Origin: Nitrospirae bacterium JdFR-85
Lineage (GTDB): Bacteria > Nitrospirota > Thermodesulfovibrionia > Thermodesulfovibrionales > JdFR-85
Reading direction: 5' to 3'
DNA: 64,000 bases
Assembly (NCBI GenBank): GCA_002011745.1
Contig: MTOU01000012.1
Coordinates: 62,001-126,000 of the forward strand
Shown here one piece after another: positions 2,993 to 28,645 of this stretch. The stretch's first letter is position 1. Each line of letters starts with the position of its first letter. The translations under genes and the position numbers were made by a program. The notes below the pieces were generated by a model that saw only the letters and a list, made by a program, of their open reading frames with translations, did no database searches and was not told the origin of the DNA.

Positions 2993-3763
2993 TTATTGTT
3001 TCTTATCTATGAGTTTTATTATCTGTTCTGCCTTTATTGCGCCGTTTACTACTCTTCCATCCCCAAATACAATAGTAGGTGTACTTCTGATTCCAAGCCT
3101 TTCGGCAAGCTTTATATTTTTGTCAATTGCATCTGTCTCACAGTCTGGCTCTGGAATAGACTTCTTTGCATATACATCTTCAAGGAGCTTTATCGCCTTT
3201 TCATTTGATTTCCGCTTTTCACAAACTATTGTCTTTGATTTACTGTACGCCTGAGGATGAATGCTTGTGAGGGGAAACATTTTTAGATAGAAAACAATAT
3301 CATCTCTCATCTCTAAAACCCTCTTCATCTCCTGATGAAGTTTAGCACAGTAAGGTCAGTCAGGGTCATCAAAGACAATTACCTTGTGCTTTGCCTCTGG
3401 ATTGCCCATTACAAGGGCATCATCAAGAGGAATTTGGGATACGTCTATTTTGTTTATCTCATTATATTTTTCCTTTGTAATATTTTTACGTGTCTGGAGA
3501 TCGATTATTGAGCCGAGGATGATATTTTTTCTCTTGTCATCCATATAGACAATAGACTTTCTCCCACTTACCTCAACCACTATCTCCCATAATCCATCAA
3601 CTACTGCCTTCTCTACTGACAACACCTTTGCACCAGGTACAAGTTTCTGCAGTACCTTTGTCGCCTCTTCGACAGTGAGATTATTTGCAGAATTAGTAGA
3701 GCTTACTCCATAAAAACCAAAAATTAAAATAACAAATAAAAAAATAGCTAATTTTCTCTTCAT
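2993..3763 (-). CDS. dsbC: DsbC-type protein disulfide isomerase with in-frame UGA (probable selenocysteine)
   Basis: Standard translation breaks this gene into two pieces at a TGA (3356-3358). Reading through gives one 256-residue DsbC-like protein: signal peptide (1 to about 26), N-terminal DsbC region (about 27-115, with GLWEIVVEVSGRK and GSIIDLQTRKNIT), then a thioredoxin fold whose active site is VFDDPD-U-PYC, with U at residue 136 and Cys at 139. After the TGA the frame keeps DsbC features: the cis-Pro loop STPTIVF and two further Cys (TIVCEK, PDCET) that would match the structural disulfide of DsbC. The start at 3763 is chosen over an upstream ATG (3811) because AGGAG lies 7 bases before it and a signal peptide follows at once. 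Expected role: periplasmic disulfide shuffling. A bSECIS-like hairpin follows the UGA, and selB lies 23 kb away in this window. It is the last gene of the minus-strand operon after hemH. The alternative is a pseudogene or base error. Confidence 0.88.
3313..3345 (-). promoter_or_regulatory. bSECIS-like hairpin just downstream of the UGA
   Basis: On the mRNA strand, 15 bases after the UGA, a perfect 7-bp stem CTTCATC/GATGAAG (3340-3334 with 3329-3323) closes an AGGA tetraloop (3333-3330). An outer 5-bp stem CTAAA/TTTAG (3345-3341 with 3317-3313) extends it across a 5-base bulge. Bacterial SECIS elements are expected to have a small apical loop with a G in its first two bases, roughly 16-37 bases after the UGA. 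Here the loop begins 22 bases after it and its second base is G. It would recruit SelB carrying selenocysteyl-tRNA. Confidence 0.75.
3356..3358 (-). other. In-frame UGA, predicted selenocysteine codon
   Basis: The minus strand reads GAC-TGA-CCT-TAC-TGT (D-U-P-Y-C). In ordinary DsbC proteins this position is the nucleophilic Cys of the CxxC active site. Replacement of a catalytic Cys codon by UGA, with family-like sequence on both sides in the same frame, is the standard signature of a selenoprotein. Confidence 0.85.
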
Positions 3764-3835
3764 TCGGTTTCTCCTTTCAGTTTTAATTTTACTAAAAATA
3801 AAGTCTAACATTCAAATATGAAAAAAATATGAATT

Positions 3836-4792
3836 CTAAGTTATTCTCTTATAAGCCTCCATAACCAGTTCTTTGAGTGTTGCTATAAGCAGCTTAGAGG
3901 TATTGAGAGACTCTGTTCTTTCCAGTGCAACACCATATCTGTCTGCTAACTCTCTGTAGAGGATGTCAATCTCATAAAGGGTTTCGATATGATCAGAAAC
4001 AAAGCTTATAGGTACAACCAGTATCTTCCTTATCCCTTCTTCAGCTGCCTCTACTATAACCTCGTCTGTTGAGGGTTCAAGCCATTTCATAGGTCCACTT
4101 CTGCTCTGAAAGGCGAGTCTATATAATAAGGCTCCATACTCCTTGGAGAGCCTTTTCATTACCAGTTCTGTGGTAGTTTTAATTTCATCCAGATAGGGGT
4201 CTCCCTCTTCAATAAACTTTACTGGAAGACCATGGGCACTGAATAAGATAAGAGTATCCCTATCTTGTTCTAATTTCGCTTTTATCTTCTCAACTAATGC
4301 TTCTATATAAAGGGAATGATTATGCCACGAGTCTATACCTGTGTATTTGAGTCCTTCCTTTATACATGCTCTTTTAAATACTGACATGGCAGAGTAGGTT
4401 GTGGCTCTGCTGTAATGAGGATAAAGACTCAATCCAATAAGCCTTTTACAACCCTCTTCTGAAGCTTTTTTTACGCTGTCTTCGATAAAAGGATGCCAGT
4501 ATCTCATTCCCACATAAACGGGAATATCTCCAATATCTGTTAGTTCTTTCTGGAGTGCCATTGCCTGTTCAGAAGTAATTTTCAAGATTGGGGAACCGCC
4601 TCCTATCAGAGAGTATGCCTTTTTTGTCTTTGGAGCCCTTAGAATGGATATCATCCATGCCAGAGGTTTCTGAAGGGGTTTTGGTCCCAAAGGAATTATA
4701 TCCCTATCTGAGAATAGATTGAAGAGAAAGGGTCTTACAGCATCAAGGCTATCAGGACCTCCAAGATTCAATAGCATCACTCCTGTCTTCAT
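3836..4792 (-). CDS. hemH: Ferrochelatase
   Basis: 318 residues, the usual length for HemH, which inserts Fe2+ into a porphyrin in the last part of haem synthesis. Family features visible: N-terminal MLLNLGGPDSLDAVRPFL, the SAHGLP motif with the conserved catalytic His (about residue 190), and FQSRSGPMKWLEP followed by an acidic stretch. No transmembrane tail is present, so it is probably soluble or peripheral. The start codon overlaps the mqnD stop as ATGA, implying translational coupling. A 72-base gap separates it from the downstream dsbC. Haem and menaquinone genes in one operon fit a respiring cell. Whether the substrate is protoporphyrin or coproporphyrin cannot be told from sequence alone. 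Confidence 0.95.
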   Translation of the reverse strand: MKTGVMLLNLGGPDSLDAVRPFLFNLFSDRDIIPLGPKPLQKPLAWMISILRAPKTKKAYSLIGGGSPILKITSEQAMALQKELTDIGDIPVYVGMRYWHPFIEDSVKKASEEGCKRLIGLSLYPHYSRATTYSAMSVFKRACIKEGLKYTGIDSWHNHSLYIEALVEKIKAKLEQDRDTLILFSAHGLPVKFIEEGDPYLDEIKTTTELVMKRLSKEYGALLYRLAFQSRSGPMKWLEPSTDEVIVEAAEEGIRKILVVPISFVSDHIETLYEIDILYRELADRYGVALERTESLNTSKLLIATLKELVMEAYKRIT

Positions 4793-26734: not shown

Positions 26735-28645
26735 TTAAGGTTGTTTGGATTTTAAAAAATTGGGATGGGGTTTCCTCACATCTTCTACACGGAGGGTAAT
26801 TTTATTTGAATCGAGGTGTTCAAGAAATGGTAGGGCATACTTACGGCTTGTGTTGAGAAGATCTCTGAACTCACCCACTGTCATTCTATCTTTTTTCTGG
26901 AAGAAGTTTCTCAATCTCCGGAGCATTTCGTCGTAATGCTCCTTAGTAAGATAGAAGGTGTCATTTATCCTCTTAAGCACACCTTCTTCAACCATAAGTT
27001 TCAGGATATCGTCTACTTCACCTGTTTTGAGGGAAAAATACTCTGCCAGTTCCTCCCTGGAGAGAGGTTGATATGCCCTTTCAGTAAGTAGTCTAAGTGT
27101 TTCATCTCTTATCTGTCTATATCGGTCTGTCAGGGCTACTTTGAAATCTCTTAAGCGGATTATATCCTTTTCAACCTCTGTTTCTTGTGTAAGAGAGAGA
27201 ATTCCATCAAATATAGAGTGCGGGAGTCCGAAGAGTGACCTAAGGGTCTCTTTCTCCATTCCACTTTTGAGGGGATTGTTTTTGTGAAATCTTCTGAGGG
27301 TGTCAAGGATTTTTACTTTCAGTTTTTCATATATCTCTCTGTGTATGAGACTGCCATCATACTGAAGAATAACCCTTTCATTTTTTAAATTATCAATAGC
27401 CTTCTCTGTGTCTTTAGTTGTGGTATTGATCCATCCCTTCAGAGTATTTAAAGGTATACCCTTAAGGCCTGATTTAAGCACCTTCATAGAGAGCTTCTCT
27501 TTAAGGTTCCCTTTTTCATACACAATAAGGTCTTCTATACCCTCCTTTTTCTTTCTCTTTTTAGGATAAGGGTCGAGTATGATCCCTCCTCCGATTGTTT
27601 CAACAGGTGAGAACCTTCTTATCACAAATCTATCACCCGCTGAGGCCACCACAGGTGACTGAAGCCGGATCTGTGCATAACAGGTCTCACCAGGTTTCAG
27701 AGTTTCTTTATCATAGAGTATTACTCTTCCCACAGTCTCGGATGTATAGAGATGGAAATGAACAGGAGATTTGTTCTTGAGCTCTGGAGCATCCCTGAGC
27801 AGATGGAGTTTTACATCTACCGCCTGAGTAGGTCTGAAAATATCTGGTGTAAGGACCATATCGCCCCTTTTAAGGTCCTCTTTCTCCACTGCATGAAGGT
27901 TTATAGCCACTCTCTGACCGGCAATAGCATACTTTATAGGAGTTCCATGGCTCTGGAGAGTTCTTGCCTTAGTATGAATTCCTGCTGGAAGTATCTCCAC
28001 TTTGTCATCCACTGCCAGTCTACCTGAAACAGCAGTTCCTGTAACCACTGTCCCGAATCCCTTTAGTGTGAATACCCTGTCTATAGGAAGCCTAAACACT
28101 CCTTCCGCAGGCTTTGTGCTGACTTTTAAGGAGTATTCATGTATTTTATCTTTTAGAAGAGGTATATTCTCACCTGTTTTTGATGACACAGGCAGTATAT
28201 CAGCACCTTCGAGAAAAGTCCCCTTTATGAACTCTTTTATGTCATCTATAACTAATTGAAGCCATTCCTTGTCCACAAGGTCTATTTTTGTAACTACCAC
28301 AATACCGGATTTTATCCCCAGAAGATTGCATATAGCGAGGTGTTCCTTTGTCTGTGGCATTACTCCCTCATCTGCTGCAACAACCAAAAGAAGTAGATCA
28401 ATTCCTCCTGCTCCTGCAAGCATGTTTTTAACAAGTCTCTCATGGCCTGGTACATCAACAATACCTACCACTATACCATCAGAATATCGCAGATAGGCAA
28501 ACCCGAGATCAATTGTTATTCCTCGTTCCTTCTCCTCTTTAAGGCGGTCAGGGTCAATACCTGTTAGGGCCTTTACAAGGGCACTTTTGCCATGATCTAT
28601 ATGGCCCGCTGTACCAAGAATTATATATTTCTCTGTAGAAGGCAT
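26735..28645 (-). CDS. selB: Selenocysteine-specific elongation factor SelB
   Basis: 636 residues, close to the usual length. GTPase domain with [16 protein letters not shown] (about 14-29), [20 protein letters not shown] and TKIDL. Then EF-Tu-like beta-barrel domains (about 175-370) and a C-terminal array of winged-helix modules (about 390-630) that bind the SECIS hairpin in mRNA. It delivers selenocysteyl-tRNA to UGA codons. selA, selD and selC are not in the window, but a likely client is (dsbC, 2993-3763). It is the last gene after waaA (13-base gap), an unusual neighbourhood for selB. Confidence 0.97.

Follow-up and report, generated by a model that had tools for sequence, protein, structure and literature searches.

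A DsbC-type protein encoded in the window (the whole 64,000-nt stretch of DNA analysed here) is very probably an exported, homodimeric disulfide isomerase/reductase whose nucleophile is a selenocysteine (Sec) inserted at an in-frame UGA, with the selenoprotein reading strongly supported by comparison of homologous sequences. The bacterium appears to place this rare amino acid at the working site of a periplasmic protein-repair enzyme, with relatives across the phylum alternating between Sec and Cys at the same site.

The position of the gene, 2993-3763, was given correctly by a previous sequence-only reading of the window, with the strand now to be specified as minus; the plus strand of this interval translates to nonsense. 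Translated with TGA as U, the gene contains a single in-frame TGA, at residue 136 in the context VFDDPDUPYCAKLHQE, a position that coincides with the first Cys of the DsbC CxxC motif (UPYC), as that reading had proposed, and the frame past the UGA retains both the cis-Pro loop (STPT) and the structural residues C181 and C208 (Table 1). The splitting of the gene by automatic calling is also reproduced, with mechanical ORF listing yielding 3811..3356 and 3328..2993, and a whole family is divided in two in this manner. By the same mechanical criterion, a TGA flanked on both sides by open sequence in one frame occurs at eight places in the window, none of which, besides the dsbC-type gene, was seen to resemble a gene, so that an in-frame TGA alone proves nothing and it is the homologues that settle the case.

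Table 1. Features of the dsbC-type locus and of selB, in window coordinates.
Feature	Position	Strand	Basis and remarks
dsbC-type gene, read-through CDS	2993..3763	minus	256 codons + TAA stop; translation with TGA=U
Shine-Dalgarno-like AGGAG	3771..3775	minus	Read in sequence; 5' of the ATG at 3763
Predicted signal peptide, ~residues 1-27	3683..3763	minus	Inferred from sequence reading (KRK, then hydrophobic stretch); model confidence low there
DsbC_N dimerisation-type domain, residues 33-96	3476..3667	minus	PF10411, 46.7 bits, over cut-off
Thioredoxin-fold domain, residues 123-251	3011..3397	minus	PF13098 Thioredoxin_2, 77.4 bits, over cut-off
UGA codon = selenocysteine 136, first residue of UPYC active site	3356..3358	minus	Translation and homologue alignment
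Cys139 codon, second redox-pair residue (UxxC)	3347..3349	minus	Translation and homologue conservation
SECIS hairpin CUUCAUC-AGGA-GAUGAAG	3323..3340	minus	7 bp; starts 15 nt past UGA, loop 23-26 nt past UGA
Structural Cys181	3221..3223	minus	Invariant across 63 homologues; matches the second disulfide of Salmonella DsbC in alignment
Structural Cys208	3140..3142	minus	Invariant in 63 homologues
cis-Pro229 (STPT loop)	3077..3079	minus	Invariant in 63 homologues
hemH, ferrochelatase	3836..4792	minus	NCBIfam TIGR00109, 330.5 bits; 72 bp upstream of dsbC-type gene, co-oriented
selB, selenocysteine-specific elongation factor	26735..28645	minus	NCBIfam TIGR00475, 395.3 bits, over cut-off

Alignment at residue 136 reveals both Sec and Cys homologues, with TGA at the matching codon of 22 of 25 loci from the genome collection and Cys in the other three. 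A search of 396 Nitrospirota genomes gave matches in 176, the best of which were fetched to yield 144 distinct copies from 102 genomes; among these best matches, codon 136 is TGA in 83 and TGT or TGC in 61, with no other codon observed. The Sec form, supposed rare by the sequence-only reading, is common across Nitrospirota. Counting best matches only, so that the figures are partial, 29 of the 102 genomes hold a single Sec copy and no other, 13 hold two and two hold three, with 22 holding one Sec and one Cys copy, 33 one Cys copy and three two Cys copies. The Desulfobacterota copies read have TGA in three cases and Cys in the remainder, and the copy from a Syntrophaceae genome has Sec.

The hairpin following the UGA, reported by the sequence-only reading to lie at the right distance, has the features of a bacterial SECIS element, with a G in its apical loop (AGGA) and the usual spacing. 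Single-sequence folding of the window hairpin is unremarkable compared with shuffles (z -1.03). All six outer stem pairs are retained in 82 of the 83 TGA genes compared with one of 61 Cys genes, and the Cys-gene rows pair at shuffle level, indicating that the hairpin is unconstrained there. The Leu codon of the hairpin is CTT in 83 of 83 TGA genes compared with 15 of 50 Cys genes (Fisher p 1e-20), and its Lys codon is AAG in 83 of 83 compared with 26 of 60 (Fisher p 8e-17), values that overstate independence since the copies are related; elsewhere in the same genes CTT is used at ~31% and AAG at 52-59%. Among 57 distinct TGA rows the stem pairs in 99.7% of cells, with compensatory changes from U-A to C-G at two stem pairs, one of which (in locus L242) turns Lys into Glu. 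Confining the comparison to supported branches leaves just four independent pairs, where the hairpin tracks Sec in 3.6 on average and opposes it in none.

The genes for Sec decoding are all present in the window genome, with SelA, tRNA-Sec (SelC, anticodon TCA) and SelD located in addition to SelB, whose gene does lie in the same window as the sequence-only reading had stated. SelD of this genome (L207, G000:C13:6948-7868) is itself UGA-coded, with a hairpin after that UGA. We propose that SelB and Sec-tRNA would insert Sec at the UGA of the dsbC-type gene under the direction of the hairpin that begins 15 nt past this codon, and that the exported homodimer would act as a disulfide isomerase/reductase through the Sec nucleophile. 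SelA occurs in 64 of 66 Sec-bearing genomes, and its near-universal presence leaves co-occurrence with the Sec form (p 0.18) little power, for which reason this was dropped as proof of Sec use. SelA was not found in genomes G140 and G215, with no SelB over cut-off in the former and only a partial SelB-like match in the latter, gaps that likely reflect sequence missing from draft assemblies. G140, rated 99% complete, carries two UGA copies (L091 and L168) with intact hairpins.

Three other accounts of the UGA were weighed. The TGA lies one base from both TGT and TGC, and the assembly consists of 47 contigs, such that one might suspect an error in the sequence, or a Cys gene in decay whose codon was disabled by mutation; this has next to no chance of being correct, being refuted by the homologues, where 83 copies from many genera carry TGA at this very codon, the downstream codons are constrained and the remaining frame is intact and conserved. 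Furthermore, no separate intact Cys copy of dsbC was found in the window genome, the sole paralogue (L066:6004-6759, contig C14; 52% identical) having TGA likewise. The genome is thus without a Cys backup and shows no sign of decay, in contrast to the situation named earlier as a refutation, in which a separate intact dsbC would accompany decay of this copy in close relatives. Read-through without selenium, whether by insertion of Trp, near-cognate suppression, or a changed code, is very improbable as an alternative to the predicted Sec: the other residue seen at the site is always Cys, the full selA, selB, selC and selD set is present, the hairpin occurs only with TGA, and several homologous genes terminate at TGA as a stop. 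Sec insertion and termination compete in known bacterial systems, and a short UGA-terminated product could on this ground be the main one, read-through then being either a minor event or a regulatory selenium switch. We consider this improbable too, if a little less so, as the short product would be without the entire catalytic motif, and conservation across 63 homologues is no lower 3' of the UGA than in the remainder of the protein and extends to C139, C181, C208 and the cis-Pro.

Inserted Sec would stand at the nucleophilic position of a protein with the features of the DsbC family, namely PF10411 and a thioredoxin domain, cis-Pro229, and the second structural disulfide C181/C208. The top PDB sequence matches of the window protein are the DsbC proteins of Salmonella and E. 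coli, with which it shares the DsbC_N domain and thioredoxin fold, the structural disulfide and the cis-Pro, whilst differing in having Sec as the predicted nucleophile where they have Cys (UPYC versus CGYC). Its score against the curated DsbC equivalog NF008129 (87.1 bits) does not reach the 215-bit cut-off, placing it in the DsbC family but outside that equivalog. An AlphaFold monomer model built with 63 homologues as input has a mean pLDDT of 92.7, and its best PDB match is again E. coli DsbC (1eej, E 2.6e-14), with TM-scores near 0.5 and a large rmsd suggesting that the domains of the model are probably arranged differently. The domain content and modelled fold point to a putative isomerase, which would act as an exported homodimer.

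In E. coli, the DsbD alpha domain keeps DsbC reduced. Profile search of the window genome found no DsbD_N (DsbD alpha) domain (PF11412), and its only DsbD_TM protein is of the stand-alone CcdA type, with 244 residues. Given the lack of a DsbD alpha domain, our best guess is that the enzyme would be reduced by this CcdA-type membrane protein, directly or through another thioredoxin, and the system allows one to ask how a periplasmic selenoprotein stays reduced without DsbD. The dsbC-type gene follows a menaquinone-synthesis gene and hemH, all in one direction. Among homologues no conserved gene partners were found, the commonest neighbour groups lying at scattered positions and strands, and so no operon partner accounts for the reduction. 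Long upstream frames, considered as possible fusions, mostly look like non-coding read-through, with an in-frame RdgB-like protein in only two related genomes (L116 and L124), where the RdgB-like pyrophosphatase frame continues without a stop through the signal peptide and the rest of the Sec dsbC-type gene. No relative of the dsbC-type gene was found in viral contigs.

A CxxCH motif of the haem c type, often GGCExDCxKCH, is present in 116 of 144 homologues just past the signal peptide and ahead of DsbC_N. Neither the window copy nor the rest of its clade has the motif, which is present in the paralogue of the same genome and also in most of the Desulfobacterota copies read. No association of the motif with Sec is evident among the 144 homologues, with CxxCH present in 62 Sec and 54 Cys forms and absent from 21 Sec and seven Cys forms. 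Haem attachment is possible given the five cytochrome c assembly proteins of the window genome. CxxCH homologues gave no cytochrome Pfam match, the segment has low confidence in the structure model, and the motif may instead be a metal-binding site or an additional thiol pair. It is conceivable, if rather improbable, that most members of the family (the window copy not among them) carry covalent haem c at CxxCH and exchange electrons with the UxxC/CxxC site, which would make these proteins haem-wired disulfide isomerases that link periplasmic disulfide repair with the pool of cytochromes in place of DsbD.

A further alternative concerns function only, and holds that the protein, while a selenoprotein, is in the main a reductase, whether of thiols in the maturation of c-type cytochromes or of another kind, and not a general isomerase. 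The position of hemH directly upstream, the cytochrome c assembly proteins, the missing DsbD alpha domain and the frequency of CxxCH among homologues are all in keeping with such a role, which we hold to be possible but unlikely: the neighbours are not conserved among homologues, and an isomerase is favoured both by the dimerisation domain DsbC_N and by the DsbC fold.

In comparing the candidate Sec isomerase with known selenoproteins, we take the domain model cd02953 to be that of the DsbD gamma domain. A selenoprotein group named 'thiol disulfide interchange protein' has been assigned to cd02953 (PMC2398784), and a thiol:disulfide interchange selenoprotein has been reported from Syntrophus and from two species of Geobacter (PMC1794560). 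Selenoprotein inventories list a 'thiol:disulfide interchange protein' with PF13098 and UxxC (example WP_011366075.1; PMC13188914, PMC9312934), a family credited to Kryukov and Gladyshev 2004. Compared by description only, this family has PF13098 and UxxC in common with the window protein; in contrast, the DsbC_N domain, Nitrospirota-wide use and CxxCH paralogues are undescribed in the literature found. One inventory also includes a 'DsbG-like' selenoprotein, NF041057 (UxxC; PMC13188914), which by description has Sec at the first CxxC Cys and a DsbC/DsbG-related fold, as here, with the NF041057 profile giving no matches to 63 family members at E up to 0.001. A Prx-like selenoprotein fused to 'DsbC' Pfam11412 (PMC9402790) shares the name alone, PF11412 being the DsbD N-terminal domain model and a different family. 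With UxxC thiol:disulfide interchange and DsbG-like selenoproteins already published (2004-2026), the kind of selenoprotein is known. The DsbC_N-bearing Sec variant and its phylum-wide spread are undescribed in the literature searched; no paper on a Sec-DsbC in Nitrospirota was found there, and none of the NCBIfam models matched (2026 library) names the family as a selenoprotein. Also new are the observations of CxxCH in most homologues and of a genome having a stand-alone CcdA-type conduit only, with no DsbD alpha domain.

The homologues form a large natural set, with 83 Sec and 61 Cys forms, both in some genomes, which is suited to testing the benefit of selenium in an enzyme of an oxidising compartment. 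Parsimony gives ~23-24 Sec/Cys changes across two trees, counted without direction, of which the supported branches force only 11 and 4, few forks being firmly supported. Four genomes (loci L109, L138, L151, and L134) have Sec and Cys dsbC-type copies within ~1-4.5 kb of one another. Additionally, one copy with TGT (Cys) at the active site (L100:6331-6372) retains the exact complete hairpin sequence, as if recently converted from Sec to Cys.
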